From contig CP136491.1 of the NCBI GenBank assembly GCA_032768795.1, positions 496,001-560,000 of the forward strand: a stretch of DNA of 64,000 nt, in the 5' to 3' direction. This DNA comes from Tremella fuciformis (taxonomy: Eukaryota > Basidiomycota > Tremellomycetes > Tremellales > Tremellaceae). The notes under the pieces are model-generated. The model worked only from the letters and a program-made list of their open reading frames with translations. It did not search any database and had not been told where the DNA came from. Positions 25,927-56,474 of this stretch are shown here, piece after piece. The translations under genes and the position numbers were made by a program. Every line of letters starts with the position of its first letter. Within the stretch, counting starts at the first letter, position 1.

Positions 25927-28301
25927 CTAGGAGATGGCATATGGCCAGACAGTCGAGCCTCGTGCGAGAGTTTCGGAGACGACGTCGGCGCCCTTCTCAC
26001 CGATGATGAAGGCAATGGAAGCGGTATTGCAGCCGACATTGCGGGGGACGATAGAGTTATCTGCAATTTAGCATACATCGCAAGTGCATACTCGATCCGA
26101 GAGAAGAAGGACACACCGATAACTTTGAGGTTGACCGTGCCGTACACATTCAGCTTGGCGCCTACCACCCCATCCTGTCCACGCGCTTTCATGGCGCACG
26201 CCGATATACTGTGCCAAGTCGTCCCCACATTCTTCCTGACCCACTGCGCAATCGCCTCGTCGTCTTCTGCCGAGTATACGAGGAAAGTCGATCCAGAGGC
26301 TGGCGCGCCCTCCGCCTCACAGGCGGCTTTGGACCCGGGCGGGAAGCTAGGGTGCGTCGACACGACCTCCCCTGCGTAGTCGGACATTCTCCGTGCCACA
26401 TCTCGCAACCTGATCCAGTGTCAGTCGAGCGTGTACAGGCCCAATTACTGCGTTAGGATGAGTGAACGCACCACTTGTAAACCCAGATATGGGCGGCCAG
26501 ATCGGCAGGATGTTCCAACATATTCGTATGGAAATTGGGTCGAGCTGCCGGATCGGCGCTCGATATGTGTATCCGCCCTTTAGAAACGGGATCTCTATTT
26601 CAGCGCCTGCTGAATTGAAAAGACGGGGAAATTCACATGCAAGCCAGGCAGCGAGGGAGGTGTAGGTTCCCGGGGCCGACTTGGACCTGTCCCCAAGCAG
26701 GAATGGCACGCAGACTCCCGAGTGAGTCCAACATTCCCGGGGCCAGAACGGCGAGCCTTACTGCCTCCGAACAACGGTTTGTCTGTCTTGTCCATATTGT
26801 TGGCGGTCCACAGATCATTGAAGCTGCTTCTCAGGCTTGCTCTTAAATGCACAAAAGCGTACTCTTTGCCCAGGTTTGCCCTCTGAGCTTCCGTAGGTCG
26901 TACTTTGAATCCCCACTCTGAAAAAGCTCAGTCTCTTTCCCTTCATTAAGAGCGCTGGACTGACCTATACCAGTCGCAGCAAGTACACCCTTGCCTGTCT
27001 TCGCCCACAGCTCCTTCTGCTCTCGGACGACCGCTTCCTCCCCCTGCAGATACCTGTCCATGACGTTCGGCTTGCGGCGCACACGATATGACACGCCGCA
27101 GAACTGGTGGTCTTGATACTCCTTGCCAACCCCTGGCAAAGATATCCGCAGAGGAATGTTGCATCCCCCCAGGATTTCGGGACTGCCGATACCGCTTCTT
27201 TCCAGTATCAAGGGAGAGGCGAGGGACCCGGCGGACAGGATGACCTGTTTTCTGGCGGTGATGCGGACTTTCCGGCTGCCATCGATTGAACAGACGGCAA
27301 GGATACCTGTAGCAGTGTGCCTCCCCTCCTCTTCAGAGTCGGCAAACAGGACTTTATCCACAATGTGGTGATACAAAATACGTATTCTTGCTTTTGGGAG
27401 ATGAATGTACGCGTCAGACGCTGTTGATCTGCGACCAGTCTCGGGATTCACGAAGTTGGCGTGGCGTCCGACTGTCGTCAGTGTACGATCAGGATCACAT
27501 GGTTGAGCACTCACAGCCATGGGCGGTGCGATGATCAGTGAGGTCGTAAACGAAGGGCACATCGTGCGCGTCCTTGAATGCGGCAGCCATATTGACCCCA
27601 AAGTCCGCCAACTGCCTATCGCCTCAGCTTGCCTTACATCCCGCGATGACAAGAGCAGCTTACGATGAGTAGGCCAGGTGCACCGGACCGCAAGACCCGT
27701 GCAGCTTCTGTTCAATGCTTGAGCCATCAAAGGTGGCGTACTGCCTATAAGCAACGGCCGGTAGCTGAAGAACGACATTTACTCTGCTGAGATATAGACG
27801 TAGCTCTTGAAACGACCAGCCTGGCTGATCCCAGTCGTCAAAGTCAGACGCCGCTGCGTTGTTGTACGTCTTGTGATCAGATTGCAAACGCGTCCCAAGC
27901 AACACACTGACCATCCAGTTGACGCTGGATCCGCCTCCTAAGACCTTGCCGCATGGTACGACCGCGACACGACCGCCGAGCGCCTGGCCAGGTTGACTCG
28001 CGATGAGATCGACTGGACTGTCAGTTACCAGGTATTGATTGCGTTGCGTAGCTCACTGGATGGCGTCGGAGTGAATACTCGGAATATGGCTTCGAGAGGG
28101 ACTGATTGTCAGTACAATTGCTTTGGCCGCCACAGACTGCTCACTCTCTATCAAAGGGTCATCTCTATCATCCCCGCCGGCTTCAACGAGTACTATATCA
28201 AGGTTCGGAAATCGCTGGGCAAGCCTGCCGGCCACTACGCACCCAGCGATACCTCCTCCGGCGATGACAACATCTGCAGCGATCGTTTCGATCGTCTCCA
28301 T
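25927..28301 (-). CDS. GMC-family FAD oxidoreductase (alcohol oxidase/choline dehydrogenase-like)
   Basis: This flavoprotein probably oxidises an alcohol to an aldehyde. Twelve minus-strand exons run 28301-28145, 28101-28057, 28012-27912, 27869-27783, 27740-27664, 27615-27515, 27471-26971, 26917-26762, 26714-26637, 26592-26472, 26409-26117 and 26060-25927, coding 616 residues. The FAD-binding motif is VVIAGGGIAGCVVAGRL near the start. The GMC signatures are CGKVLGGGSSVNWM and GSLASPLILERSGIG. The active-site His lies in GTTWHSISACAM, and the second catalytic position is in RNVGCNTASIAF. An upstream ATG at 28598 is in frame, but the start at 28301 puts the FAD motif at the usual distance. It could feed the aldehyde dehydrogenase nearby. 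That link is inference. Confidence 0.9.
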
Positions 28302-28832
28302 GACCGTCGAGGACAAGAGATCAGGAGTACTCCCCGACCGAGCTCTCACAAGACAACTTATGTCAGGGCTTGGACCTAGATGGATGCCTTGAGGGCTTGA
28401 GCCCGAGCGCAGTCCATCGCTGTCTTGCCTTGTCGATTGGGCGTGCACATAGCCCAACAAGTCCGAGCTGGATTGACACTGTCGACTGGGCAATACCAAC
28501 GAAGCCGGACCGGCCGGCGGGTGGAGGAAGATCCGTACAAATCCCGGAGATGACCCTGGGCAGATAACGGCGCCGTCTTCTTCAATGGGGAGCTGCATTC
28601 GTCATGCTTCACGCCCTCCTCCGTACCACTCCCCCGGTCACTAGCTCAAAGCTGGACGCCAGGACGGTGGCCGTCCGAAACCCGGGACTCATCAAAGGCA
28701 TCCCGCGAATCGTTACCTTTTCGCCAGAGATAGCATCCAGCGATCCGCCTGTATGCCCCGATATATAGTACTGCCCCGTGCGTTCAAAGGGCACCCTCAC
28801 GTCTCTATCGGGCCCTCGAATTGGTAGCTACG
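28302..28832. promoter_or_regulatory. Divergent promoter region, GMC oxidoreductase/NCS1 permease
   Basis: This is 531 bp between opposed start codons. The minus strand is open in frame upstream of the GMC ATG, but that extension has no recognisable domain. A TATATA-containing stretch (GATATATAGTAC) lies near 28760-28771, about 65 bp before the permease ATG. Confidence 0.4.
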
Positions 28833-30547
28833 ATGGTGTCCTTCGCCGCTCTCAAGGAGAACAAGACGCTTCGCAAGATCGATGCGGCGCTGCGAGTCAA
28901 GCCCGACCCCGATGCCGACCCGGCACTCGCTTGGACCAACAAGGACTTGGACCCGGTCCCGCCTGAAAAGCGGACTTGGTGAGTGGCATCCGCTTCATCG
29001 GGACATGACAAGACACTGACGGGAGTCAGGGGACCCCTTGACATCTTTGGGTACTGGATCTCTGACCAGTATGCCACGGCGACCTGGGACCTCGGCTCTA
29101 CGATCGTCTCCCTCGGGCTGACGGCCCGTGAGGGCATTCCGCTCACCTTCTTCGCCTTCTTCTTCATCGGCATCATTCTCACACTGAACGGTCGTATCGG
29201 CTCGAACACTCATCTGTCTTTCCCGGTGATCGTGCGTGCCTCATTCGGCATGTGGGGTGGCTACATCGCCATCCTCGCCCGATCTACTCTGGCGATTTGC
29301 TGGCTCTGCATTTTAACCTGTGAGCTATCACAGCTCTACAGCCCTTCTGTTGTGCTGATGCGCTCCAAGACCAAGCTGGATCTATCACAGCCGTCATGTT
29401 GACAGCGATATGGCCGTCGTACGGTCGAATCAAGAACACTCTCCCGGAGGGGCTAGGCATCACCTCTCAGACCCTCCTTGGGTTCGCTATTTTCTGGATC
29501 ATCCAAACACCCTTGTGCTGCACGCCGGTACACAAGCTCAAGTACTTTTTCTGGTTCAAGATGGTCGTCTGCCCCATCACCTTCTTCGGCATGTTTATCT
29601 GGGGTCTCGTCGTCACTAAAGGTCACGCGCCCTACATCGATGGTCCACTGCAGATCAAGGGGTCCAAATTTTGGGCAGTCATACAGGCCCTCAACGCGTG
29701 CACCGGTCTTTACTCGACTCTATCGATCAATATCGCCGACTTTGCACGTTTCTCACGCTCCAATGCCGTGAACTGGTACCAGCTCATCGCGATCCCTCTC
29801 ACTGGGACAACGCCCGTCATTTGCTCCATCATTGCCGTGGCAGCCGCTAAACAGCTCTGGGGAATCGACGCATGGGACCCAGCCGAGCTCATCTCCCACT
29901 TCGACTCGCGAGCTGTACAATTCTTCGCCGCCTTCGGATTTCTTGTCGCCACCGTCGGCTCCAACATCTCTGCCAATTGCATCTCTTTCGCCACCGACTT
30001 CACAGCCATCCTCCCCCGATACTTCACCATCTTCCGGGCTGCACTCCTTGCCTCTGTGCTGTGCTTCGCGGTCAACCCGTGGAAGATCGTGACTAGCGCC
30101 CCAACCTTCTACAACTTTCTCGCCAGTTACCCAGTGTTCCTCGCGCCGGTCGCCACTATCATCTGCGTCGATTGGTACGTGGTCCGCAAGGGCAAGGTGC
30201 ACATTCGAGACCTGTACATCCCGCACGGCCGATACCACTATACATACGGCTTCAACTGGCGAGCTATTGCGGCTTGGATCATCGCTTTCGGTCCCAACCT
30301 TCCGGCCTTCGCCCACGCAGTCAACCCGTCCAACCCCGACGTTCAGCCTTACACGTATTACTTCTCCTGGTATTTCTCAACCTTTGTGTCGGGCGTAGCG
30401 TACTATATCATCAATCGCCTTGCGCCCCCTCGCGAGACATTTGTGACTGGAGCAATCTATGAGATCGAGGTGCCGCAGGTGGAGAACCCCGACGACAGGT
30501 CGGAGAAGGGCAGCATGAGCAGCGCACGTGTCGCCGAAGTCGTGTGA
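28833..30547 (+). CDS. NCS1-family nucleobase/hydantoin/allantoin-type permease
   Basis: This is a plasma-membrane symporter of the nucleobase-cation-symport-1 family, which includes fungal uracil, allantoin and uridine permeases and the bacterial hydantoin carrier Mhp1. The exons 28833-28978, 29030-29319 and 29370-30547 code 537 residues. After a hydrophilic N-terminus come WGPLDIFGYWISDQYATATW, GRIGSNTHLSFPVIVRASFG and, over intron 2, LTYQAGSITAVMLTAIWPSY, all family-typical. About twelve hydrophobic segments follow, including SINIADFARFSRS. The substrate cannot be fixed from sequence. Its place beside HyuA/HyuB makes a cyclic amide plausible. Confidence 0.92.
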
Positions 30548-31202
30548 CCTGCTGAGAATCGTTCAGGCTGGTGAGTTGGTGAGGGGGACCGGTGGTGCCG
30601 AGATGGATGAGAAGATTCGAATGGGGAGAGAAGCACGTTGTTTATTGATTCCATAGTTGGGGATGCACCCGTTCTGAGGCGCCCTTTCGTCTGTTCTGCA
30701 CTTCGTCTCCGCTGAGCTCGTCTTACACTGCATGGGGGTCTGTCCACTAAACGGCGCTCAAATCGTACTACAATTGTGCAAAGGAATAAAGTTCCCGGCA
30801 GATCATCTTGCGGTACCGGGGATATCCCGATTCCTCCAGTGTCACCTCGGTCCCGTACATTCTCCGCGCCGTAGCTGCGCGGCTGTAAGCTGGGCCCCGT
30901 AAGGCTTCCGAAAAGCGTCAGTCAAGGCCCGCTCACGACCACGAGGAAATGGCACAGTTCCGCCGGGACAGACCTCCCGTCCAATTTCCGGGGAATTTGC
31001 CCCTCGGACGCCTCGGGAGCCAATCACAACGCCTGGCTCCGTTGCTTCACACAGTAGGCAACATGGGAACCAAGCGGAATACGAGCGGGCCGCACAAGTT
31101 GGCCCCAAGCAGTAGCACAGTGCAGCGGACACCATCTGGGGGCTTTGAAGCTCTCCGTATGCATGGCACCCTCGAACGCTGTCTTGTTGGACATCATCGA
31201 CC
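30548..31202. promoter_or_regulatory. Upstream region of the DUF1445 gene
   Basis: These 655 bp separate the permease stop from the next start codon. A CCAATTTCCGGGG stretch lies at 30981-30993. The same ATTTCCGG core recurs in the HyuA/HyuB promoter. No gene was found. Confidence 0.35.
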
Positions 31203-32200
31203 ATGACGCTCATTGAGGCGTTCAAGACTGCCCGGGAAGTACGCCTGGCCGCTCGTTCGGGCGCCTTTCGCGGGTCCACCACAGGCCAGTGCGACCAATA
31301 TATCCAAGCCAACCTCATCATCGTGCCTTCGAAATACGCCAAGGACTTCCGTGGCCTGTGCCAGCGGAACCCGGTGTCTTGCCCCCTCCTAGCTGAGAGT
31401 CCTGCACCTGGTGACCCAACCTTTCCAGAAGTCGCGAAAGACTGCGACGTGCGCAAGGATGCCCCAGGGTACAATATGTGGGTGATCGGTGGTGCGTTGT
31501 GGGGCTGTCATTGACGAGAAGCTACGTGAATGGCAAAGCGACCCAGATTGATGTACCCAACATCGACTCGTTGTGGACGGAAGACAGCGTTGCCTTCCTC
31601 AGTGAGGCTCCAGATTCAAACAGAAAGAGCGCTCTGCTGACTCAGCAGTCGGCTGTTCCTTCTCGTTTGAAGGAACCCTTGCGACTGCGGGCCTGATACC
31701 ACGACACACGGAGCTGGGAATCAATGTTCCCATGTATCGCACCAAGGCAGCTCTTATGCCCTCTGGCGGTATGTGTCCTACAGCCCGCCGTGTGAATGCT
31801 CTGACGTGCCAACAGTGTTTGGAGGCAACATGGTCGTCTCCATGCGCCCGTATCGAGGGGAGGAGGTGGAGAAAGTCCGCGACCTGACGCGACCTTTCAG
31901 CAGAACGCACGGGGAGCCTGTGGCATGGGTGAGGCCCGCCAGCCCCGTACGAGAACAACGCTCATCAGTAAGGGATGGTCCGCTGTCAAGGCGCTGGGAA
32001 TCACAGACATACACACTGCCGATTTCGGTGATGCCCCTGTCTTTCGCGAAGGCGAGGTGCCAGTATTCTGGGCATGTGGCGTGACCCCTCAGCTATCAGT
32101 CATGAGCTCGCCAGATGTAAAAGGCACGGTCATCGGGCACGCCCCTGGTAAGATGATCTGCCTGGACTTGAAATGTGCGGATATTCTCGAGCAGCAGTAG
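31203..32200 (+). CDS. DUF1445 / putative hydro-lyase (D-glutamate cyclase-like)
   Basis: The DUF1445 family (YcsI in Bacillus, N-terminal half of mammalian D-glutamate cyclase) acts on small amino-acid-derived rings. The mammalian enzyme interconverts D-glutamate and 5-oxo-D-proline. Exons 31203-31477, 31522-31601, 31649-31768, 31816-31928 and 31973-32200 code 271 residues, the normal size for the free-standing family. Conserved blocks are [63 protein letters not shown] and [11 protein letters not shown]. The stop is 167 bp before the aldehyde dehydrogenase ATG on the same strand. A role in 5-oxoproline or hydantoin metabolism fits the neighbours but is inferred. Confidence 0.9.
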
Positions 32201-32367
32201 ATTCAGTTGTAACAGGCATGCATTCTTCGCAATGCCTGAAGGCAGCATCTCGGCGGGATTCTCCTCCGGGCTGGACACCCTACGCGGAATTTGAGCGGAG
32301 GTGATGTCGCCCGACCTGAGATTAAGAGCTGGCGCATTATGCAGCTTGCTAGACACCTTGAACAAGA

Positions 32368-33190
32368 ATGGTCAGCGTCAAACTGCGCACTGGAGTGACG
32401 GTCGATCTGCCAAATGGCCTCTTCATCAACAACCAGTTCGTGCCAGCCTTGGGCGGCGGGACAATCGACACGTACGATCCTTACACCGGCTCTTTGATTG
32501 CCAGTGTCTCGGCTGCAGAGTCTGCAGATGTGGACGTCGCCGTCAAAGCTGCCGAGGAGGCTCACCCGACGTGGAGGAAGGTCGCAGGCCCCACGAGAGC
32601 CAAGTTGCTCTGGAGACTGGCCGACCTGATCGAGCGCGATCTCGACATTCTTGCCGCACTCGAGGTCAGCTTGATGTGGTCACGGAAAATGAGAAGTCTG
32701 CTGATCCCCATAGGCTATGGACAATGGGAAGGCATACCAAATTGCTAAAGGCGATGTTCGCATGGCTGCCGACACTTTACGCTATTATGCTGGGTGGTGT
32801 GATAAGCACTATGGTCAGTTTCACCCCCCTTTGACTATATGGTGCAGATCCTGATCCCCGGGAGGTCAGACGGTAGATATGGGCGAAAGCTCGCTCAACT
32901 ACACCCGGCATGAACCTATCGGAGTGGTTGGGCAGATCATCCCCGTGGGTCTACTCTCAGATAGTCTTAGCGTCACTCATTCCTGACGTACGCTAGTGGA
33001 ACTTTCCCCTGCTCATATGGACTTGGAAGATCGCCCCCTCAGTGGCTTGCGGGAATGTGTCAATCATCAAGTCTGCAGAGCAGACGCCGTTGACTGCTCT
33101 TTACGCAGCCCAGCTTGTCAAAGAAGCAGGCTTCCTGCCCGGTGTTATCAATGTCCTCAGCGGGCTTGGCCGAACTGCTGGCGCTGCCAT
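32368..33190 (+). pseudogene. Aldehyde dehydrogenase, 5' part (gene split by a Gypsy element)
   Basis: This is the first half of an NAD(P)-dependent aldehyde dehydrogenase. Exons 32368-32664, 32714-32813, 32865-32944 and 32997-33190 code about 223 residues. They include FINNQFVPALGGG, RHEPIGVVGQIIPWNFPLL (formed over intron 3) and [13 protein letters not shown] of the cofactor domain. The frame runs without a stop into the element at 33191, in the codon following GRTAGAA. The last five bases GCCAT are the target duplication and recur at 40146-40150. Removing the element with one GCCAT rejoins the frame exactly, and the full protein would have 489 residues. With the 7-kb insertion in an exon the gene should be null. 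Confidence 0.93.
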
Positions 33191-33388
33191 TGTCGGGATC
33201 GGTGAACGCGAGTTGGTATGTGAGTGACTGCCTTGCTGGTCGACTGATATGCCAGGATGAGTTACCAGGTGACAGATGAATAATACATTCTTCGAAGAAG
33301 GTATCCTCTCCTTCTCAGTCTGTATATGTAGAGTTCTCACGGGTAGTCGGCTACTACGGACATGTCCGTGATGACGTATTCCATTACA
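33191..33388 (-). repeat. Gypsy element 3' LTR
   Basis: This 198-bp LTR is identical by eye to 39948-40145. On the plus strand it starts TGTCGGGATC and ends CCATTACA. It is preceded by target duplication GCCAT at 33186-33190. Confidence 0.95.
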
Positions 33389-33607
33389 GTCGCCTCCTCC
33401 TTTGTCCTCGGGCGTCGCGACCGAGCCTAGCGACGGGCGTCTCCTTGACGACGGTCGTGAGGGTGTCGACATGAGAACTGCAGAGTAGGGCGTGCAGTGA
33501 CGGGCGCGGTAATATATGAACCAGCCAGGTTGGGCGCCCGTTCTTCGTCCATCTCTCTTCTTTCTTGAATCCTCGAGCGACACCCCAACTTGCCAAGTAC
33601 GTTAACG

Positions 33608-34535
33608 ATGCCTGCTCGTATCTACACCGCCGCAGACGTGTCTGTATCCCCTCCTGCCTCGTACGCCATCGTCGATGCCAACGACGATTCGACTACATAC
33701 CGCATAGGCAACGGTAGAACGTACCGAGCGCGACATGTCGGCTTTGACGGGACCCTCACTCAGGCCAAGCATCGAGCGGCGGTACGTGGCAGTTACTGAG
33801 CGGTATTCGCTGACTAGTAGGATCTCTCCAACCAGCTATCTTCGACCTTAGCGGCGATGTCGGTTGATGAAGCTGGCCGGCACCGAGCTCATGTGATGCG
33901 CACCGCCGTGGCATTCATAGCAGCGTGGGATGGTCGGCTAAGGATCGTAAGGGCCGCCGACAGTGAGTCTATTCCGCGATTACACGGCTCATTACCAGAG
34001 TGTAATGCCTGCGAAAAGGCTGGCAAGCCTTGTGTCGTGGCCGCTATAGTACTCCAAGGAGGCGGGTCCCGCGCAGTTTCCTCGCAAGTACTGTTTTGTT
34101 CCTGCCAACTACGCTTACCTCAGCTGCGTGCGTTGTCACTCCCAGCATGGAGTTTCTTGCGACATCCAGCTCGGTCTTGCCCTAGGCAAACGTCCTCGGG
34201 GCACCGTTCGCGAAAGTGCCTGGCAGGAACTGGGCTCGACTCTGCAGGATCTACGGAGCGAGCTGTCGTCTACTGACCGCATGACCGCCCATGACAAGAA
34301 GAGATGGAAGGGGTACGTCGGGCGAGCCTTGTTTGTACGTTAGCATATTTGGTCACTTACGGTTGCTAATTGGCAGATAGTCGACGGATTCCAGGTCAAG
34401 ACGGAGCACAGGTCTCCCAAAAGGCCAGTTGACTATTCCAAGTATAGAGGCCGCGGCGGCTATGCACAGGAGTCGGACCCATCCGACGACGAGGCGACCG
34501 ATCAGGAGGACGCCGAGGCCGATGACGATGCGTAG
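33608..34535 (+). CDS. Antisense accessory gene carried by the Gypsy element (paired C-x2-C-x6-C motifs), possibly frameshifted
   Basis: This is a spliced gene on the strand opposite to gag-pol, inside the element. Exon 33608-33781 starts MPARIYTAADVSV. Introns 33782-33820, 33963-33998 and 34335-34376 have GT..AG ends. The frame gives CNACEKAGKPCVV at about 34001 and CVRCHSQHGVSCDI at about 34129, two C-x2-C-x6-C units like halves of a zinc cluster. A basic stretch (DKKRWKGYVGRALF) and a strongly acidic C-terminus (DPSDDEATDQEDAEADDDA) follow. Between the two Cys units (34034-34068) the frame changes, with no intron of normal length to explain it. This may be a frameshift or an unrecognised splice. 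I do not recognise the family; a DNA- or RNA-binding regulator is a guess. Confidence 0.55.
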
Positions 34536-34658
34536 TAGGTGTTGTAGGTTGGCGCTTCCTTCCTCTTCCGGGGCGTGTTGTACATAATTATGCGTTCTCT
34601 TGCATGTAATGACCGTCGCGTAGTTGGAACAACGAGTGTAGGTTATTGACAGGTACGC

Positions 34659-37600
34659 TCACGCGTACCTGTTAGGTACGAATCTCTTTCTCCTACTCTG
34701 GCTCTCCGAGTTTGAGTAGGCGTCGTACATGGTGGTGAAGGCAGGGTCGCTTTCCACCTCTGCCGCTGGTTCCCATGTACTGTCACTGATAGGCCATCCT
34801 ATCCACTTGATACGGTAGTGTTTGGAGGTAATCCCATGTTTGTCCTTGACCATTCGTTCGTCGAGGATCGCCTCGTAGGTATAACCGTTGTCATCTAACA
34901 CTATGTCGCTGACGGGCGACTGCGTAGGTTGTGACTGGCTAGTACTTGTTTCCTCTGAGGCGTAGAAGGGCTTCAGGTATTCCACGTTGATCACGTCGTG
35001 GATCCTGTAGGACTCGGGGAGGTGCAGCTTGTATGCGTTGTCGTTGACCTTTGCTGCCACCTTGAATGGTCCTAACCACCGGTTATCTAGCTTGGCTGAT
35101 GTCCTAGCTCCTTTGTAGTTTCGAGCAGAAAGTAAGACTAGGTCGCCCACTTTGAATGTCTGTAACCGGCGTTTACGGTCGTATTGCTGTTTGTTCTGTG
35201 CCCGTGCGTGCTTGATCTGTTCTTGAAGGTACTTGAATCTTTCAAATATCCTGCGTGTATACGTCACCCCCTCCTCGCTTTCGTGCGAGGAACTTCCCAA
35301 TGGGTCTGTCATATTCTGCCTAGGGGTGTAGCCGTACCAAGCATCGTAGGGGGTCATTCTGGTGGTTCCGTGCACCGTGGTGTTGTATACGAATTCCGCT
35401 GTAGGAAGCAGCACGGACCAGTCGTCCTGTTCGTAGTTGGCATATACGCGTAGGTACTGGCCCAGCCACTTGTTGACTATTTCGGTTTGCCCATCCGTTT
35501 GTGGGTGGTACGCGGTAGAGAACTTGAGGTCACAGCCAAGCTTACTGGTGACTGTGCGCCAGAAAGCTGACACGTACTGTGCTCCTCTGTCCGAGATGAT
35601 ACGGTCTGGTAACCCCGTTCTTGGGTAGACTTTCGTAAGAAACGCCTCCGCCAGGGTAGGGGCGTCGAGCTTGTCGATAGGTATAAAGATCGCCGCCTTC
35701 GTTAGCTGGTCTACCCAGACGCTGATGTTGGTATAGCCCTTGGAGTCCGGTAATTTGGTGATGTAGTCGGTAGATACAGTTGACCAGGGTCGCTCTGCCA
35801 CGGGTATGTCTAGCAGTAATCCTGGTTGTAGTTGGTTGGTATGTTTGGTCTTTTGGCACGTTTCGCAATGCTTTACCCATGTTTTGACGTCTCGTCGCAT
35901 CCTCGGCCACCAGAATCTTGCAAGTAGCCTGGATGTGGTCTTAGCCACCCCCGGGTGGCCAGCCGTCGGTAGGTTATGAGCCCATATGAGGACCGTGGTT
36001 CGTTGCTTCTCGGGCACGATAGGTAGGTCGTGGTAGTAGAAGAGGCCGTCCTTGTGTTTGTATTCTTCGGGATGGCTCTTCGTAAGAGCCACGTATTTTT
36101 GTTGTTCGTGCACATCCATGGCGCCTTTAAAGTCTTCTTGAGCCATAGGGTCCTTGTATTCGACCCTAGTTGCCAGGTACTGTGCTGAACAAAGCAACGC
36201 CTTGAAGTTGTGCGCGTTGAGTTCTGGTGACAAGGTGGTTGCTTTGGTGTCCGTAGGTCGATAGTCTGGTCGTCTGGACAGGGCATCTGGCTTGGTAGCT
36301 TGTTTGCCTGGCCTATATTGGATGACAAAGTCGAAATCGGCCATGTACTCGCTCCATCTAGCTTGCCTCCTTGTCAATTGCTTGGTGGTTAAGAAGTACT
36401 CTAGACTTCTGTGATCGGATAGTACGACCACTCGTACTCGGGTACCTTCGAGGTAATGTCGCCAATTCTTGAATGCGTACACGATGGCTAGGAACTCCTT
36501 GTCGTGAACTGGATAGTTGAGTTCTGCCGGATCCATCTTCCGAGAAGCATATGCGATGGGTCTGGTCGTACCATCTGGGTAGGTGTGTGACAGGATCGCA
36601 CCCAGAGCGTAGTCCGACGCGTCCGTTTCTAGTAATAGGGGAAGATTTGGGTCGTAGTGGCTGAGTACGGGAGCCGTAGTCATCGCTCGCTTGAGAGAAT
36701 CGAAAGCGTCCTGCTGTTTGGGTCCCCATTGGAAGGGCGTTCCCTTCTTGGTTAAGTCGTGTAAGGATTTGGCTATTACCGAAAAGTTCCTGATGAATCT
36801 GCGGTAGAAGTTGGCGAACCCTACAAACGACTGTGTCTCCTTCAAGTTCGTAGGCGTGGGCCAGTCCTGTACCGCCTCCACCTTCTTTGGGTCCATCTTG
36901 ATGCCGTTTTTGTTAAGAACGAAACCCAGGAACTCCACCTCGTTGCTGTGGAATTGGCATTTCGAGAGTTTGGCGAATAGCTTATACTCTCGTAGTCGTC
37001 GCAGGACTTCCTGTACGTGGCGGGTATGGTGTTCCAGATCCTTGGAGTACACCAATATATCGTCGAGGTATACAGCCACGTACTTGTCGAGTAGGTCGTG
37101 GAAGACGTGGTTGATAAATAGCTGGAACGAGCCTGGTGCATTGCAGAGCCCGAAGGGCATGACCAGGTACTCGTATTGTCCGAAGGGTGTGCGGAAGGCT
37201 GTCTTCCACTCATCCCCCTCCGCTATGCGGACGAGGTTGTATGCACCCCGTAGGTCTAACTTGGTAAACACGGTCGATCCACGTATCTGGTCGATTACGT
37301 CGCCTATCAGGGGCAAAGGGTATTTGTTCTTGATCGTCATGGCGTTGAGCTTGCGGTAATCGACGCATAACCGCAGACTTCCGTCCTTCTTTTTGACGAA
37401 TAGGACTGGTGCTCCTGCGGGGGATCGTAACTCTCTGATGAAGCCTTTATCCAGGTTTTCTCGCAGGTACGCCATTAGTTCTTCCCTTTCTCGTGGGCTA
37501 AGTGCGTAGATAGGCCCAGCTGGTGGTACCTTGTCCGAGCTCAGTTGGATGGCGTGGTCGAATTGCCGATGTTCTGGTAGCTTATCGGCCTGTCCTTTAT

Positions 37601-39911: not shown

Positions 39912-39932
39912 ACCTGTCGTCCACAAGTATGG

Positions 39933-39945
39933 GAAGAATGTATTA
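39933..39945 (-). promoter_or_regulatory. Self-priming site of the Gypsy element (PBS)
   Basis: Two bases inside the 5' LTR boundary, the element RNA would read UAAUACAUUCUUC. This is the perfect 13-nt reverse complement of GAAGAATGTATTA within the LTR (40038-40050). This is the arrangement known from Tf1-type self-primed chromoviruses, where the 5' end of the RNA folds back on the primer site. Confidence 0.75.
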
Positions 39946-39947
39946 AC

Positions 39948-40145
39948 TGTCGGGATCGGTGAACGCGAGTTGGTATGTGAGTGACTGCCTTGCTGGTCGA
40001 CTGATATGCCAGGATGAGTTACCAGGTGACAGATGAATAATACATTCTTCGAAGAAGGTATCCTCTCCTTCTCAGTCTGTATATGTAGAGTTCTCACGGG
40101 TAGTCGGCTACTACGGACATGTCCGTGATGACGTATTCCATTACA
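39948..40145 (-). repeat. Gypsy element 5' LTR with promoter
   Basis: This is the 5' LTR in element orientation and is followed on the plus strand by GCCAT at 40146-40150. It holds a TATA-like CTACATATACA (minus strand, about 40079-40089). About 30 nt downstream lies GAAGAATGTATTA, the proposed transcript start. Confidence 0.93.
40038..40050 (-). promoter_or_regulatory. Predicted 5' end of Gypsy RNA, pairs with the primer site
   Basis: GAAGAATGTATTA on the minus strand lies about 30 nt after the TATA-like box, where an RNA start would be expected. It is perfectly complementary to 39933-39945. It overlaps a 12-nt palindrome TTCTTCGAAGAA. Confidence 0.65.
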
Positions 40146-40150
40146 GCCAT

Positions 40151-41176
40151 GGCGGCCCATCCTCGCATTCGCAAAATAGCATTTACAGGAAGTACACCCG
40201 TCGGACGTATGGTACTTCCAGGTTCCCCTTGCAACAACGCCCGTGCTCACACTCGCAGATCATGAAAACTGCGGCCGAGTCCAATTTGAAACGAGTCACA
40301 TTGGAGCTGGGAGGCAAGTCACCGCATATTGGTGCGGGGTTTCTGCTGTAAGCGCTTCACGCTTGACGTCCAGTCTTTGCCGATGCCGAAATGGACAAGG
40401 CGGTCGAATCTGTGGCCATGGGGATCTTCTTCAACCATGGGTAAGTGGTTCAACCTTCGAGGCTGTTCCCGACTAACGTCAAAGCCAAAACTGCTGTGCG
40501 GGATCTAGGGCTTTCGTGCAATCCTCCATATATGACAAATTTATTGCTGCACTGCAAGCTCGGATACAAACGATCAATTTAGGTGACCCTTTCGCTGACC
40601 AGACCTTCCAGGGCCCGCAAGTATCGAAGATCCAATTTGATCGAATCATGACCTTGGTAAACGACGGTCTCTCGAGCGCGCGACTGGTGACAGGAGGAAA
40701 ACAGCACAGCCTAGGAGGCTTTTTCATTGAACCCACCATCTTTGCCGATGTACAGGCGGACTCCAAGGTAGATCCATTCAGTCATATTCAGAATAGAGCT
40801 CAGTTGTCACAGCTCCACGAAGAGATTTTCGGTCCGGTGCTCTGCGTCCATCGCTTCGACTCCGTTGAAGAGGTCGTCTCCAAAGCCAATGACACCGAAT
40901 TTGGTCTTGCTTCTGGCCTGCACACCACCAACTTGAACACTGCGATCCACGTCGCAAATGCACTTGAAGCTGGTGTCGTCTGGGTCAATCAGTACGGTGG
41001 TCTCCCTGCGTAAGCTTCGGGACACCAGATTGCGCGAGTGTCACACTGATAGCCGCAGTCAACTGCCAATGGGGGGCTACAAGCAGAGCGGTATCGGAAG
41101 GGACCTTGGTTCTTATGCGCTCGCAGAGTATACTCAAGTCAAGACAGTCCAGATCGGGCTCTCCATCGCGCACTAG
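40151..41176 (+). pseudogene. Aldehyde dehydrogenase, 3' part (gene split by a Gypsy element)
   Basis: This is the second half of the interrupted gene. The exons are 40151-40211 (resuming the split exon), 40259-40331, 40374-40440, 40485-40767, 40813-41009 and 41059-41176. It begins with RKIAFTGSTPVGR of the cofactor site. The catalytic centre follows with VTLELGGKSP and, over an intron, GQNCCAGSRAFV carrying the nucleophilic Cys. The C-terminal half contains [22 protein letters not shown] and YTQVKTVQ. No other lesion is visible, so the insertion is probably the only damage. The stop TAG is at 41174-41176, only 143 bp before the next gene. Confidence 0.92.
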
Positions 41177-41319: not shown

Positions 41320-44133
41320 ATGTCGGAAGCGGGTAGCAGTGCCTCGTCCGCCAAAAAGCGACAGAACGTGTCCAGAGCCTGCGTCAACTGTCGTGAAAGG
41401 TGGAGTCTTCCTGCAAGCATGCTGGTGACGCTGACAGACAAGAAAGAAAAGGTGTGATGGGGTGAGACCCAGGTGCGGAAAATGCGCGGCTCACAATGTA
41501 TGTCGGCCATGCTGTCTTGAGGCGCCCGAGTACAGGCGATTGACAGCTCAGGATGACTGTGTGTGGTCAGGCCGTGCCGACTGGCGCAAGCAGGTGTCTC
41601 GTCAAGAGGCTAACGAGCTGCGAAGCCGCATCAAAGAGATGGAAATGCAGCTCGATCGCGTTGCATCGGGATCCGGTGATGGCGATCTGATGACCGATAG
41701 TCATATTGCCCAGCAACACAGGGGCATAGGATTCTTCTCACAGGCTTCTGCTAGCTCGATCGCGCTCACGCATCTAGCCCAAGCTCGACCCGCGGACGGC
41801 CACTATGCCGTACCGGTCCAATCTCTCAACGGGAATATACCCAGAGGGGCAGAGCCTCGACCGATTCCAGGTCCAAGTTCGAGCTCGTCGGGGCAATCTC
41901 CTTTAGCAGCTGGCAGCATAGGCCGAGACGAGGAGCTGGAAGGCGTCATCGTAGGTACCAGAAAGACCCAACCGTCGCCTGTCTAAAGGGACAGGTACAA
42001 GACTCGGAAGGTTCTCTTCGTTATCACAATCCCACGAGCGCGTTTCATCACGCAGAAGCCGACCAGTGGGCGAGTGCATCACCTTGCTCTCCTACAAATG
42101 TCAAGGCCAGGCCAAATCGTGATTCGGCAATCCGCGATTATCAGAGATATCTGCCCCGCTTCTTCCTCACTTCGCACCAGCATGACTTAGCCTTGGACAG
42201 ATTTTTCCGATATTTCTCATCGTGGAGTGCGTATGACCGCTCCGTCCACTTGATCCCGACATAGAGTCTCATGGTTGACATTCAGCCCAGCGGGTGACGC
42301 CGCATCTGTTTTACCGTGACATGCAAGTCGCCCTTCGCGAGGAGAATGATGAGCACATTTCTACGAGAACGCCATATTATAGCCCGATGCTCCACAACAT
42401 GATCCTGGCATTGGGATTAGCCTATGCAGAGGAGCAACACCTCAGAGCACTTACTACTCGGACATTGTTCGCGGAGGAGGGCGCTCGACATCAATCCGTC
42501 GAATGCTCAGCCTCGTCGGTCGCAACGGTCCAAGCACTCGCTCTCTACGCCAGTTTCCACTCTACGAACGGAGACTACTCTTTAGGCTGGTTCCACTTCG
42601 GATCAGCTATGAGAGCATGCTATGCGTGTGAGTGAGGTGGCACTATCGGTTCCGACAGCTGAGGTATGGCAGTAGGCTTCAATATAGACGTCTCCAGTTT
42701 AGTCACACGGGGCAAACTTTCCAAGGAAGCCTTCTCGCAGGTCAGTCACCCTTCCTCTCCAGACTTATAAATGACCCACTCAGCGTTGCACGACTTTCTG
42801 GACCTGTTTCGCGCAAGAAGTGATGTGGGCCATATACATCGGTCGGGAACCCATGATACCTGACTACACGTACGGGCTCCTTCCCGCTCCAGACGGTATT
42901 TGACGCGCACAGAATAAGACCGCCAGAGGTAGATGCGGATACGGACGAGACTGAGTGGCACTGGCCGCATCCACCGGCAGGCACCTTCCCGTCTCAACGA
43001 TCATATCTCAGTGTGACCTTCGTGCACACAGCATCTCTGATGCAGATTGCAGCGTCCATCAACAAGAGCGTGTGAGCCCTTTGACTCTCTCTTAGTGTGA
43101 ATGTTCTAATGTCAAGATATTCTGTACGCTGCGAGAAAAGGCTATTGGTCACGAGCGGGCAAATTCACCAATTCAAGTAGATTCAAGACTCCTGTGCATA
43201 TGTTTCTGACCACAGCGACGCCTTGGACAGCTGGCGGGAGAGCCTTCCGAGACCTCTGTTGATTGCCTCCCAGGCGACGGACCCTGTACTCCCACACATC
43301 ATCATGCTTCATCTGGCCTGGTCTTGGGTCATCATACTCCTTTTTCAGCCCTTCAGTCAATTTGCCGCTCGATCCCCCAACACTGGGCGCATAGCCCCAT
43401 TTGGGGAGATCTCAACAGTCGCTATGACTGTAAGTTCACGTAACATTCCCTTCTGCTCGTGACCTCGTGACAGCGGGAATGACCCAGCAGCGATGCCATC
43501 AAGCTAGCATTCGAATCCTGCAATTGACCGAAACGTGGCGAACCCAGCATGGGCTTCGCTTCTGTCCACCGACCATGGCGCAGGTCGTGTATACGGCCGG
43601 CACAACTTTCCTGCTTGCTGCAGCGCAAGCTGCTCTGCCGGAGCGGGCAAAAGCAGCCCTTGACAATGTTCAGAGCTGTCTCAATTCCCTGAGGGAGATA
43701 GGGATGACCTGGGCGGCCGGGTCTCAAAAGGCGTCTATCCTGCAACGCCTACTGGCCGAGTATGGGCAGACCAGCTTCGTGCCGGCAAGCAGTACACGTC
43801 CTGCATCGGAGAGCCAAGAGGCGCAGAGACAAGGACAGCTTCTTGTGAGTCGTCTTACATGGTGTTGCTTCTCACGCAGTCCGTGGCTGACGACGAAGGA
43901 GGAGCAAACATTTCCCATCGTTTCGGAGAGCGAATTGTAAATCCGTGCCCATTCACCTAGTGACTGGCCATGCTGAGAACAGTAGCATGCCTATGGACCA
44001 GGGTTTGCTGGATCGGTCTTGGGTCCCCGAAGCGACTACCGATGACTTCATTCAAAGTCTCCTAAACCAGATCTCGATGCCCATGTCGGGGGATTCGGAT
44101 CTCCTTGCATTGCTCGGAGAGATGAATCAATAG
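41320..44133 (+). CDS. Zn2Cys6 transcription factor, candidate regulator of the hydantoinase-type cluster
   Basis: This is a nuclear zinc-cluster activator. Thirteen exons are inferred: 41320-41399, 41443-41497, 41552-41950, 41995-42226, 42286-42627, 42673-42740, 42784-42869, 42913-43071, 43117-43176, 43216-43429, 43488-43844, 43880-43936 and 43978-44133, coding 754 residues. Splicing yields the binuclear cluster CVNCRERKKRC with DGVRPRCGKC and a final Cys in DDCVWSG. A predicted coiled coil follows (ANELRSRIKEMEMQL). The fungal regulatory domain includes MILALGLAYAEE, ALALYASF, EVMWAIYIGREP and LHLAWSWVIILLFQPF. Two introns are unusually short (39 and 35 nt). It lies between the aldehyde dehydrogenase and HyuB, so local regulation is likely but unproven. 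Confidence 0.87.
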
Positions 44134-44231
44134 GATAAGTGCACCGAGATCTGCGAGTCCTCCATGCTTCGCCTGCATCCGTCAAAAGTAGAAAATGCAT
44201 GTCGCCCAATATCGTTAAGGAGAGAATGAGC

Positions 44232-46278
44232 TCAAGCTCCAAACGCCTGCTCTGCGGCGGTCCGCTCAGCCAAGCTACCGCGAGCAGCAAAGGAGAGCTT
44301 GCGGCGCGTTCTACCAGCCTGAATCCGCTTAGACTTGGGACCCCAGCCACCACCGCCCGGTGTGTTGATGACCAGACGATCCCCTGCGCCCAACTTGACA
44401 GTCACCTTTCCTCCAAGATTGATTTTGCGTACAGGACCAGCACCGGTCGGGGGTCTCTTGATCCAGGTATTGACACCCATAGACGCGTCTTCGCCGCCTT
44501 CGAGTCCTGACCGACCTCAGCGGCTGTTCACTTGTTGACCGGCTCTTTGCTTACCATACGGCGCACGGGCTCGACGCTCTGTCAACAAAGAGACAGTGAT
44601 AGGCTCTAAGAACTCCATTTCTCTGATGACACCATTGCCACCGACATACTGCCCTTGACCTCCGGATTCTGGGCGGTAGCCGAATCGGTGCAGTATGACC
44701 GGGTAACGTCTCTCGAGAATCTCGGGGTCGGTGATGCGTGTGTTCGTCATGTGGCAGTGAACGCCCGAGGCTCCATCCCACGTAGGTCCGGCACCGCTGC
44801 CACCTGCAATGGTCTCGTAGTAGCCCCAGCCTTTCCGCACTTCGCCCGTCTCGGGGTCTTTCCCCCCAGCGCCAAAGGTCAGACTGCGTGTGAGTATCCG
44901 AGAAATAGCAAGCGACAACGCTTACTTGTTGCAGCACCCTTGTGAAGCGGCACAGGCCTGGAATGCCTTGAGGACCGTATCGGTGATCCGCTGAGAGGTG
45001 AGGACATTCCCCGCGCATACCGCAGCTGTCGGTGAGGGGTTCAGGAGGCATTCGTCTGGTATGAAGACTTTGAGTTAGAGCTGTGAACGTGGAGTTGTGA
45101 CTTTGGACTTACTTTCCAGTGGGACGATACACCCAGCGTTGAGTGGGATGTCTTCTCCAACCATTGCCCGCATGCAGTAAATGATGGCCGAATGGACGAC
45201 GGAGATGGGGGCGTTGAGGTTGCCGTTCAACTCACTGCCGGTCCCTGTGAAGTCGAACTTGGCTGTGCCCTTCTCCGGTTCGATGGTGACTTTGAGCTTG
45301 ATGGGGGAACCGTCGTCGAGATAATCGACCGCGGTGAGGACGTTGCTTCCAGCTTTCTCAACCGACTTTTTCAACAAGTTTTGCACTGCAACGGCCGCAT
45401 TGCTAAGGGTGAGCACTGCTGCAAAACTTCCTGCCGAGCGCTCACTCGCGGATATGAGCCATGTAATCGTGCACGACCTCGAGAGAGTGCTCTGTCACCA
45501 AGGCGTTGAGGAGTTGAGCGCCCTTGTGATTCGCGGCTATTTGCTGGGAATGAGTGAACCGCCAGCGCGAACCATATTGTACCTACCGCTTTGAGGTCAC
45601 TCTCGACATCTTTGTAATTCCTGCATCCACTGCATCCCGGCTCCTTGGCCGGCTCCTCCACTAGCAGTCGGTACAGTCCTTCGGCATTGAATTTGCCTTG
45701 GGAGACTACTTTGAATGAGATGATCTCCGCGCCTTCTTGAGCAAGGGTCGTGCTATTCGAGGGCATCGACCCAGCGATGATGCCACCGATATCGGCGTGA
45801 TGCGCTCTGCTCGCGGTGAAGAAGATGATTTCGCCTTCGTTGAAGACAGGCGTGACGACGGTCAAATCGGGCAGATGCGATCCGAAAGAGGTGGGCGAGT
45901 TGCTGAGGATTACATCGCCTGGTTGGAGAGTCGCCTTGTGTTTGGCAAGCTGAAACTTGACACAGTGCGACATGGAGCCGAGGTGTACCGGGATGAACCT
46001 GAGATGTCATCAGTCACTCTCATCCTGAGTCGTTCGGAGAGCTCACGGCGCGTTGGCAACCAGGTCGCCGGTGGGCGAGAAGAGGGCACAGGAGTAGTCC
46101 AATCTCTCCTTGATGTTGGTGGAGATACTCGTCTGCTGCAGCGACTTGCCCATGGCTTCTGCAATGGACATGAAGCGATTGGAGCTGCCTGTAAGATACT
46201 GCTCTGCTTCCGGCGAGTCGCGACTGACAACAAGGACAGGAGGATAGCATCGTGCGGCCTGGGAACAATCGTGGTCAT
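44232..46278 (-). CDS. HyuB-type subunit of hydantoinase/5-oxoprolinase family
   Basis: HyuB proteins form the second subunit (or C-terminal half) of ATP-dependent amidohydrolases and carboxylases such as N-methylhydantoinase, 5-oxoprolinase and acetone carboxylase. The minus-strand exons are 46278-46229, 46184-46047, 45998-45587, 45543-45446, 45402-45113, 45055-44926, 44883-44555 and 44506-44232, coding 573 residues, the size of a stand-alone HyuB. Signature blocks are [69 protein letters not shown] and [13 protein letters not shown]. The C-terminus has TPGGGGWG. It is transcribed away from HyuA. In most fungi the 5-oxoprolinase is one fused chain, so separate genes are notable. Confidence 0.93.
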
Positions 46279-46634
46279 CTCGTCGGCGTCGAGCAGGTCC
46301 GCGACGTCGGTTGTGAGATGTATGAGGACAAGTACCTCTCACTTCGTTACCTCTCATCTCATGATCGGCCTATGCATGACAGTGCCTGCTAGTGTTGCAG
46401 AGACCGGAGCAAAATCCCGGCCACTGGATCTTGCTGGCAACGTCACATGACTCGCCGGAATTCGCACGGGGGCCGCTCTTCAGCGGAAAATGGGCGGACT
46501 CCAGCTCATTTCCGGTCCATGTCGAGCCAATCTCCGGAGCTGATTTCCGATAGGCACTTGCATGCATGCGCGATGCGTGTTCAGAAATGTTCAAGTTGTG
46601 TTACTGTGCGGCCTGCTAGTGTACTTGCTGCATC
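46279..46634. promoter_or_regulatory. Divergent promoter of HyuB and HyuA
   Basis: The two start codons point away from each other across 356 bp. The interval holds several CGG/CCG triplets suited to zinc-cluster binding: GCCGGAATTCG near 46453, CATTTCCGG at 46507-46515, CTCCGGAG near 46532 and GATTTCCGA at 46542-46550. The neighbouring Zn2Cys6 gene is the obvious candidate to bind here. The binding claim is inference. Confidence 0.5.
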
Positions 46635-49173
46635 ATGACGATTCTACTTGAGCCGAGATACAACATCCGTGTCAGCATCGATCGCGTGAGTGGCGTCCCC
46701 TCCTGACCAAGGTAAGCCTGATCGTCCAGGGCGGAACCTTCACAGATGTACACTACTCGTTCGTGGATCCACAGATGGGTTTGCGGACAGATGCGATCCT
46801 GAAGCTTCTTTCTCAAGATCCTGCCAATTATGCAGATGCGCCAACGGAAGGGGTCCGGCGGGTACTGGAGATCGTGACGGGGAAGACTTTCCCTCGCAAA
46901 GAGCCTCTACCGACCCATCACTTGGGTGAGGACAAGCGATTGTCGGAGATTGTCTGAGCTGACCAATCTAGACTTTGTCCGACTTTCGACAACCGTAGCC
47001 ACGAATGCCTTGCTGGAGCGCAAAGGAGCCAAACACGCGCTGTTGATCACCAAAGGGTTCGGCGACCTGTTGTCTATTGGCAATCAAGCCAGACCGAAGA
47101 TCTTCGACTTGCACATCCAAAAAGCCGAGCACCTTTATGGTCATGTCGTAGAGATCGATGAGCGGGTGACCCTTGTCGGCTTCTCATCCGATCCGGAACA
47201 GGCGAGCCACGCCCTCAACTTTGGCAAAGATGGCAACGTCTCTAGAGATTACGCCGGATTTGGTTCCCAGCAGGGTCTCGTCAGTAAAGGAGCAAAGGTA
47301 GTGCAGGGTGTCAGTGGGGAGGCTGTCCACATCATCAAGCCCATCGATGAGAGCTGCGTTCGCGTGCAGCTCCAATCGATCTATCAGCAAGGCTACCGTT
47401 CTTTGGCGGTGGTACTCATCCATTCTTATACCTATCCGGAGCACGAGCTCGCCATCGGCCGCATCGCTCGCGAGATCGGCTTCACCCAGGTCTCTCTGTC
47501 CTCTCAACTCCTTTCCATGATTCGCATGGTCCCTCGCGGCGTGTCAACTACTGCCGACGCCTATCTTACGCCAGTACTCGATGACTACCTCGATGGCTTT
47601 TATTCGGGCTTTAAAGGGGGACGACAAGGGGACCTGACGGTCGAGTTCATGGGCTCCGATGGAGGTTTGACAGATCTCAAGGTACGTGCGGAGCTACCGA
47701 GAAGTATAGGAGTGCTGCTGATGATTCCAGAATTTCTCGGGACTGAAATCGATCTTGTCTGGCCCAGCAGGAGGTGTGGTCGGACTCGCCACCACCTGCT
47801 TCGACCCTCGGGAGGGGTCGCCGATCATTGGGTTCGACGTTGGAGGTACCAGCACGGACGTCTCCCGTTTTGCAGGAAAGTTCGAGACTGTTTACGAGAC
47901 AACAACCGCAGGCATATCGATTCAGTCCCCTCAACTGGACATCAATACGGTTGCCGCTGGCGGAGGGTCTTGCCTGACCTTCAAGAATGGCATGTTCCGG
48001 GCTGGGCCCGAATCTGCTGGGGCGCACCCAGGGCCTGCATGTTACCGCAAAGGTGGACCCCTGGCATTGACTGATGCCAACTTATACCTTGGACGTCTAG
48101 TGCCGAAATAGTGAGTGTATCTGCTTGAACACTTCCCTACGTGGCTGATTGATCTAGCTTTCCCAAGTGTTTTGGTCCGAAGGAAGACGAGCCTTTAGAT
48201 CCGTTAGCCACGGAAAAGGCTTTCGCCCAGCTGGCTCAGGAGATCTCGGCAGAGACACGGACACCCATCAGCATGGACAAGATGGTCTCGGGGTTTGTTG
48301 CGATTGCCAACGAGACCATGTCCAGGCCCATCCGAGCTTTGACTGAAGCTCGTGGCCTTGCGACCTCGAAGCATGTGCTTGCCTCATTTGGTGGTGCAGG
48401 CGGACAGCATGCTTGCGAGATCGCCGAGATCTTGGGCATTCGCCGGGTCCTCATTCACCGATTCTCCTCGGTTCTCTCCGCTTATGGTCTTGCCATGGCA
48501 GATCGAGTGTTCGAGCTTCAACAGCCAGCCTCCGCATACTACCGCCCGGATAATTTTCCTATGTTACATGCTCGACTTGACGCGTTGGCGAGCAAAGTCC
48601 GGCAAGAGCTACAATCGCAGAATTTCGAGGACGATCAGATCCAGCTAGAGTATAATCTGCATATGCGTTTCGACGGCAGCGACACTTCCATGATGATCGC
48701 GGCGCCCGCAGACGGCTCGATGGACTTTGAGAACGAGTTCCGGCAGGCATACAAGCGGGAGTTCGGCTTTTTGCTCGAGACCCCGATAGTCGTCGATGAC
48801 ATCAAAGTCAAAGGCGTCGGCAAGTCGCTCACACAAGAGTTGCCAACGATGTATGACGAGGCTGCGAGGTTGAAGCACAGAGTGGTCGATACCCGAGTAG
48901 AGAGCCCAAAGGTGTCAGGGTTCCAAGAGGTTTATGTCTCGCCGCCAGGCGAGTCCAGCGGCCTCAGAGTGAAAACACCCATCGTTGAGCTGGGGCAGCT
49001 GGAAGCCGGTGATGTGGTAGCTGGGCCCGCACTCGTCATTGATGCCACCCAGACCATCTTCGTGAACGCGTGAGTCCATGAGTCCCAGACTCGCTGCGTC
49101 CGAGCTGACATTGAACAGTAGATGGTCAGCTCTCACAACGTCGAGACATTTGATGATCTCTCGAACGGATTGA
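46635..49173 (+). CDS. HyuA-type ATPase subunit of hydantoinase/5-oxoprolinase family
   Basis: HyuA is the ASKHA-fold ATPase subunit that activates the amide of hydantoin- or oxoproline-like rings. The exons 46635-46685, 46730-46925, 46972-47681, 47731-48110, 48158-49069 and 49119-49173 code 767 residues. The N-terminal phosphate motif [13 protein letters not shown] forms over intron 1. [20 protein letters not shown] and TKGFGDLL follow. The second phosphate motif is [14 protein letters not shown]. Further blocks include [35 protein letters not shown] and [18 protein letters not shown]-terminal HyuA domain is present ([20 protein letters not shown]). Length matches a stand-alone HyuA plus a short tail. 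With HyuB it would form a two-subunit enzyme. Confidence 0.95.
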
Positions 49174-56455: not shown

Positions 56456-56474
56456 CCTCCCCTCGCGAGCATGT

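Follow-up and report, generated by a model that had tools for sequence, protein, structure and literature searches.

Results

The genes at the locus

The window analysed here is a stretch of 64,000 nucleotides from Tremella fuciformis (G000:C2:496001-560000, in a genome of 28.1 Mb on 11 contigs), within which lie seven genes that a sequence-only reading had taken together as a candidate cluster for the catabolism of cyclic amides. These encode a GMC oxidoreductase, an NCS1-family permease, a DUF1445 protein, an aldehyde dehydrogenase (ALDH), a Zn2Cys6 regulator and the two oxoprolinase-type subunits HyuB and HyuA (Table 1). All seven are present and six are modelled as open frames, whereas the ALDH gene is split by a long terminal repeat (LTR) retrotransposon. 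The accompanying claim that nothing unrelated intervenes between the permease and HyuA is borne out with one exception, a small antisense frame carried by the element. The lactam-opening core of the set is real and regulator-linked, while the place of the permease is uncertain, the ALDH is interrupted and the part of the GMC oxidase is unproven. By tests within this genome and across species the neighbourhood of the core is beyond chance, and the proposal that HyuA, HyuB, DUF1445 and the Zn2Cys6 regulator form a catabolic module is supported. Gene models come from a simple splice-aware script followed by manual correction, and family identities from Pfam scans of the modelled proteins (HyuA and ALDH being scanned as pieces).

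Table 1. Features of the cluster, with positions in the window
Feature	Position	Strand	Description
GMC oxidoreductase, alcohol-oxidase-like	28301..25927	-	617 aa model, 11 exons; Pfam GMC_oxred_N and GMC_oxred_C
NCS1-family permease	28833..30547	+	537 aa, 3 exons; Transp_cyt_pur 220.7 bits
DUF1445 protein (Pfam D-Glu_cyclase PF07286, UPF0317)	31203..32200	+	271 aa, 5 exons; PF07286 189.9 bits
ALDH 5' part	32368..33190	+	4 exon pieces, 223 aa, ends at the insertion
GCCAT 5-bp target site duplication, left copy	33186..33190	+
LTR retrotransposon in ALDH exon	33191..40145	-	6,955 bp; one long gag-pol-like frame on the - strand (labelled by eye)
LTR (element's 3' LTR)	33191..33388	-	198 bp
LTR (element's 5' LTR)	39948..40145	-	198 bp
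GCCAT 5-bp target site duplication, right copy	40146..40150	+
ALDH 3' part	40151..41176	+	280 aa, open to stop; catalytic Cys region GQNCCAG kept
Zn2Cys6/Fungal_trans regulator	41320..44133	+	about 735-760 aa, about 13 exons; PF00172 and PF04082 (first 420 aa scanned)
HyuB / oxoprolinase B subunit	46278..44232	-	573 aa, 8 exons; PF02538 666 bits, cut-off 26.8
HyuB-HyuA divergent intergenic region	46279..46634	.	356 bp; presumed shared promoter
HyuA / oxoprolinase A subunit	46635..49217	+	778 aa, 6 exons; Hydant_A_N 135 bits, Hydantoinase_A 104 bits

The ring-opening subunits and DUF1445

HyuB carries the Asp-His-Asp-His metal tetrad (D46, H104, D107 and H129) and HyuA the ATP motifs DRGGT16, DVGGT355 and PGP419. 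Both Hydantoinase_A-type and Hydantoinase_B domains score over their curated cut-offs. The tetrad corresponds to the one described in CapB, and the family mechanism is described as ATP activation in the A subunit followed by metal-assisted opening in B (PMC8453981; for this and the papers cited below, our statements refer to the portions of each text available to us). The subunits resemble nine fused bacterial HyuA-HyuB proteins found at DUF1445 loci, with 42-49% identity for HyuB and 35-39% for HyuA. An identity as the caprolactamase CapAB is rejected on the absent Cys pair and a low equivalog score: Cys410-Cys411 of CapB aligns with Cys416-His417 of HyuB, which scores 160 bits against the CapB equivalog model, where the cut-off is 1000, and the scores in general lie far under the CapA/CapB cut-offs.

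All of the invariant columns of the PF07286 family are present in the DUF1445 protein, which scores 289 bits against the NCBIfam 'putative hydro-lyase' model, under the cut-off of 324. Its model resembles solved UPF0317 proteins and, distantly, NrpR MJ0159. NrpR senses 2-oxoglutarate, and this likeness of the model may hint at a glutamate-like ligand for DUF1445, short of proof. The sequence-only reading had gone further and had the protein make or open 5-oxo-D-proline, which is not established: the D-glutamate cyclase activity was assayed in a two-domain mouse protein, whose racemase homology is placed in DUF4392 and not in DUF1445 (PMC5339696). A Pfam scan finds no DUF4392 in the protein studied here, and we do not take the Pfam name D-Glu_cyclase as proof of that activity, since the mouse enzyme has two domains, DUF4392 among them (PMC5339696).

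Linkage of the core within the genome

Genome-wide we count 11 HyuB loci, 13 Hydantoinase_A loci, 4 DUF1445 loci and 15 NCS1 loci, obtained by merging match rows and entering the loci by hand (from 45, 28, 10 and 45 rows respectively; for the regulator, 35 rows less 7 in the window gave 20 loci). The 15-kb limit used for linkage was set post hoc with the data already seen, limits of 5, 10, 20 and 30 kb being computed as well, and the binomial tests presume uniform placement, except for one test confined to contig-end zones. Outside the window there are three DUF1445 loci, two of which have a HyuB locus nearby, at 9.5 and 12.3 kb (p 4e-4 for the 15-kb limit). Paralogues of the regulator are found within 15 kb of HyuB at 5 of 20 loci, where 0.22 would be expected (binomial p 2e-6), and within 5 kb at 4 of 20; with both sets of loci restricted to contig-end zones, p is 6e-4.

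Two paralogous clusters are of particular relevance. That on C8 comprises DUF1445, HyuA, HyuB and a paralogue of the regulator (35-39% identity, E 7e-83), the paralogue being the top genome-wide match outside the window; that on C3 comprises NCS1, HyuA, HyuB, DUF1445 and a weaker relative of the regulator (E 2e-11). Thus the expected co-occurrence holds for the four core families in two clusters, with the regulator weak in one of them; it is weak for NCS1 and fails for GMC. The C8 cluster (C8:1405-1435 kb, L043-L045) also contains a DAO-family FAD enzyme and a sugar-type transporter, and a long reading frame, which we label copia-like by eye, lies near it. A separate observation is that 8 of the 11 HyuB loci are no further than 175 kb from the end of their contig (binomial p 1.4e-5; the 175-kb limit was chosen once the distances were known, and one HyuB locus, on C1, that lacked an end distance was scored as a miss).

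The regulator model is open to its stop codon, with several equally possible in-frame solutions for the final two splices. The motif AGCGGA is enriched upstream of the other genes (8 seen, 0.97 expected; in 4 of 5 intergenic regions) and is absent from the GMC/NCS1 intergenic region. We regard it as a lead only, because it is one of thousands of motifs tested and is weakly repeated elsewhere.

DUF1445 in bacteria and in other fungi

The bacterial sample consists of the best 80 of 591 confirmed DUF1445 loci in a genome scan, with flanks of up to 10 kb fetched (many loci being shorter) and counts made without a control set of random loci; Pfam confirmed the family assignments of the four bacterial proteins used as queries. 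A 5-oxoprolinase-type gene lies in the flanks at 47 of the 80 loci. At 20 of these it is HyuA plus HyuB or a fused protein and at 27 it is LamB_YcsF or a carboxyltransferase-like PxpABC subunit, and the two types together are seen at none of the 80 (P of no overlap 6e-5). Where bacterial DUF1445 stands beside an oxoprolinase, it pairs with one type or the other. Most of the matches fall in the inner 5 kb (HyuA 15/19, LamB_YcsF 23/27, carboxyltransferase 15/24), the inner and outer flanks being of similar length. ALDH is found at 4/80. DUF4392, which accompanies DUF1445 in the mouse D-glutamate cyclase, occurs at 12 of the 80 loci (L054-L133); PxpABC-type genes are present at nine of these 12, and HyuA/HyuB-type genes at none.

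The fungal comparison rests on locus-tag numbers in two match lists, for DUF1445 and for HyuB, with the best 120 matches in each. The best listed matches of both proteins are in basidiomycete yeasts around Kwoniella and Cryptococcus. For Kwoniella bestiolae these are I302_100011 for DUF1445 (64%) and I302_100009 for HyuB (72%), each on a contig of 8,410,264 bases, and we take the two genes to be neighbours because their tag numbers are two apart. These tags are low-numbered, so that this pair too is possibly near a contig end.

The interrupted aldehyde dehydrogenase

An earlier placement of the retrotransposon between genes understated its effect, as the element lies within the ALDH coding sequence. 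When compared with the uninterrupted ALDH of K. bestiolae (P0250), the two halves match residues 4-226 (64% identity) and 228-463 (59%); because they are one residue apart on that protein, the element must sit inside a coding exon. The insertion has two LTRs with TG..CA ends, a target duplication and a host gene that is continuous across the site. The LTRs are identical (198/198 bases), hence the insertion is recent. At least 40 genome copies of the LTR family are present at 97-100% identity, ten of them at 100% including this pair (40 of 56 candidates scored), and the family has probably moved recently and is numerous and young. An intron-containing antisense frame at 33608-34535 (+), between the end of pol and the 3' LTR, gives a weak split model with no family assigned and a Cys-rich stretch (seen by eye).

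With its coding exon interrupted, ALDH is rejected as a working gene of the cluster, and the downstream oxidation step proposed for it is broken in this isolate; its membership of the module is unproven. In the genome search for ALDH, 11 of 69 candidates were scored. The best matches for the ALDH half and for NCS1 were supplied by a chimeric protein query with 120 matches listed, mostly ALDH proteins. K. bestiolae is the best fungal match listed for the ALDH half, a cockroach (Blattella) protein, the best ALDH-type match overall, being set aside as non-fungal. The same list contains no GMC match, an absence that is uninformative given that ALDH proteins filled it.

The permease and the GMC oxidoreductase

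The permease matches the hydantoin transporter Mhp1 at E about 1e-13. It retains Trp140 and the Asn of the SAN stretch, which were tested as equivalents of Mhp1 Trp117 and Asn318, and has Leu144 at the position equivalent to Gln121 (in an alignment whose first aligned stretch is weak, 1.5 bits). Roles for Trp117, Asn318 and Gln121 have been described in Mhp1; Gln121 binds hydantoin, its replacement by Leu reduces hydantoin uptake and binding, and Leu occurs naturally in the uridine transporter Fui1 (PMC4195764). Notwithstanding its NCS1 family membership, then, an identity as a hydantoin carrier of the Mhp1 type is rejected on the Leu at this position. The C3 permease of the same genome, which aligns gap-free in that stretch, keeps Gln, and related fungal permeases have either Leu or Gln.

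Among the matches listed, the closest relatives of the permease are in Fusarium decemcellulare and Pseudohyphozyma bogoriensis at 70-71%, with the next at only 58%; this patchy distribution could mean horizontal transfer or loss. Of the 14 other NCS1 loci, one lies within 15 kb of HyuB (p 0.15); when any Hydantoinase_A locus is counted, three do so (p 8e-4), and two of the three Hydantoinase_A loci concerned adjoin S-Me-THD-like (DUF917-type) domains. As a member of the module the permease is weakly supported. Hydantoinase_A loci with S-Me-THD-like (DUF917-type) domains and an NCS1 permease near each of them are located at C4:2483-2489 kb (L049) and C4:2318-2326 kb (L051/L052).

The GMC gene and the permease gene diverge across a common intergenic region of 531 bp. 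The nearest solved structures of the GMC protein are one labelled as a GMC oxidoreductase and then six alcohol oxidases. The genome has three GMC loci, and the two outside the window have no HyuB locus near them; adjacency is what speaks for the GMC gene as a member of the module, and its membership is unproven.

Two further observations concern the rest of the window. Several Zn2Cys6-like open frames at 19962-23654 (-) suggest by eye a second transcription factor to the left of the cluster, and more long frames on the same strand, at 54461-63998, have the look of retroelement polyproteins (also by eye).

Discussion

A proposed function

We propose that the locus is a regulator-linked lactam-utilisation module, and consider it somewhat better than an even prospect that it serves 5-oxoproline or a close five-ring lactam; both substrate and regulation we infer. 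The permease would import the ring compound, HyuA would activate it with ATP, as the family mechanism and the motifs present suggest, and HyuB would use its bound metal to open the amide ring and give an amino acid such as glutamate. DUF1445, to judge by its association, may aid the ring-opening step or handle the other stereoisomer or a related ligand. The adjoining Zn2Cys6 protein would turn the genes on, as its recurring linkage suggests. For ALDH, and perhaps the GMC alcohol oxidase, the role would be to oxidise either a side chain or an aldehyde formed downstream; since ALDH is disrupted by the retrotransposon, this isolate has probably lost that oxidation branch, unless a different ALDH stands in.

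A cyclic amide is a reasonable substrate class, as first suggested, although two of its named members are weakened. 5-Oxoproline or a near relative is favoured over hydantoin because Leu stands in the permease where Mhp1 has Gln121, and it fits better than caprolactam because HyuB is without the Cys-Cys pair of CapB. In addition, the presence of PxpABC-type or HyuA/HyuB-type genes as alternatives beside bacterial DUF1445 points to 5-oxoproline.

Several observations weigh against this proposal. The linkage of DUF1445 to HyuB is loose, with none of the three other DUF1445 loci within 5 kb of a HyuB locus and one within 10 kb, and the 30 kb fetched around the fourth DUF1445 locus (C2:3187 kb) contain no match to HyuA or HyuB. 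In Marasmius tenuissimus the DUF1445 gene (AAF712_007240) and the HyuB gene (AAF712_003923) are far apart; the synteny in relatives that had been looked for holds for the DUF1445-HyuB pair of K. bestiolae and fails in this second species (one of two comparable species among the matches listed). Among the bacterial DUF1445 loci, 33 of 80 have neither oxoprolinase type, and both NCS1 and GMC are missing from all 80. The best matches listed for the permease are in Fusarium and Pseudohyphozyma and not in Kwoniella. The conversion of 5-oxoproline to glutamate needs neither ALDH nor GMC, so that both are misfits in the simplest pathway. Lastly, a 5-oxoprolinase-like enzyme is reported to be active on caprolactam and not on 5-oxoproline (PMC6061476), and because such an enzyme exists the substrate cannot be fixed from sequence in the HyuA/HyuB family.

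Other explanations

Some of these same points would be accommodated if only HyuA, HyuB, DUF1445 and the regulator belonged together, the permease, GMC and ALDH being chance neighbours with other jobs. This we hold to be a substantial possibility, if short of probable. It agrees with the lack of GMC and NCS1 at the bacterial loci, with the absence of AGCGGA from the GMC/NCS1 region, with the single NCS1 locus near HyuB among 14 others, and with the C8 cluster, which has a sugar-type transporter and no NCS1 match. As concerns the permease, however, the C3 cluster has an NCS1 gene 6 kb from HyuB, the proximity of NCS1 to Hydantoinase_A loci is significant at 15 kb, and no unrelated gene interrupts the run from NCS1 to DUF1445 in the window. 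A less probable explanation, and on balance an unlikely one, is that the cluster is a true one for some other ring, such as a substituted hydantoin, a cyclic dipeptide, a larger lactam or a hydroxymethyl lactam; in the last case the GMC oxidase and ALDH would oxidise the side chain to a carboxylate before ring opening. An alcohol-oxidase-like GMC protein and an ALDH in one stretch do make an alcohol-to-acid pair, members of the HyuA/HyuB family act on differing rings (PMC8453981, PMC6061476), and NCS1 is the family of Mhp1. Nevertheless, the Leu in the permease, the missing Cys-Cys pair in HyuB and the alternation of the two oxoprolinase types beside bacterial DUF1445, the last pointing to 5-oxoproline, all argue against another ring.

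The disruption of ALDH raises the question of whether the cluster as a whole is decaying and non-functional, with the retrotransposon as one step of its loss. We think this improbable, as the remaining genes are modelled as open frames with ordinary introns, the active-site residues of HyuA and HyuB are kept, each half of ALDH is still open in the models, and the identical LTRs place the insertion in the recent past. A module for 5-oxoproline or a close five-ring lactam is the interpretation that we prefer.

Comparison with known systems

Several described systems share features with this locus. The bacterial HyuA/HyuB-type (OplA-like) loci have the same ring-opening family beside DUF1445, at the 20 of 80 loci given above, but nine long fused proteins are seen among them in place of the split genes seen here, and NCS1 and GMC are lacking. 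To our knowledge, a Zn2Cys6 regulator would not be expected in bacteria. The pxpTABC and ycsFGI-kipIA systems of Corynebacterium glutamicum and Bacillus subtilis (PxpABC) also combine use of 5-oxoproline with a linked transporter and regulator (PMC13274462), and the pxp operon of B. subtilis includes ycsI, downstream of ycsG (PMC10448178). PF07286 is present in those of the matches listed that bear the name YcsI (UPF0317). PxpABC differs in its LamB_YcsF and carboxyltransferase-like subunits and its NRAMP-like transporter; LamB_YcsF has one match in the present genome, away from the cluster.

Among eukaryotes, OXP1/OPLAH has the same A-like and B-like parts in a single chain of about 137 kDa (PMC6061476), whereas here they are encoded by two divergently transcribed genes. 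Cryptococcus neoformans is perhaps similar, with its two 5-oxoprolinase genes CNAG_06872/06873 side by side (PMC7067042), if, as we suppose, they are an A/B pair. The CapAB cluster of Pseudomonas jessenii likewise joins a HyuA/HyuB-family lactamase to an ALDH (PMC6061476), but differs in the CapB Cys pair and the equivalog scores, as described above, and no omega-aminotransferase is among the genes seen in our stretch. The hxn nicotinate cluster of Aspergillus nidulans is a fungal, regulator-linked cluster for the catabolism of an N-heterocycle (PMC5746545); it differs in having other enzymes and a Cys2His2 regulator, and in belonging to an ascomycete. Among the papers listed in searches of an open-licence library, we saw none that describes such a gene set clustered in a fungus.

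Significance

DUF1445 is a widespread family for which we found no agreed function. Because it recurs beside one or other of two different ATP-dependent 5-oxoprolinase types, in bacteria as well as in the fungus studied here, its role can be tested directly. Substrate specificity may be readable from induction, given that the regulator is linked to the ring-opening enzyme at paralogous loci, and the insertion in ALDH is a natural knockout that can be compared with sister strains, if there are any without it. A broader picture can be put forward tentatively, and we rate it below the functional proposal itself: the genome would hold a family of parallel lactam-opening modules (the 11 HyuB loci, of which 8 lie no more than 175 kb from a contig end, and at least five others with a relative of the regulator within 15 kb), DUF1445 would serve, in bacteria and fungi alike, as the dedicated partner of two 5-oxoprolinase types that are unrelated to each other, and the present module would be losing its side-chain oxidation step to an active retrotransposon. 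If this is true, the parallel modules would give the species a diet of ring amides that is arranged regulator by regulator.

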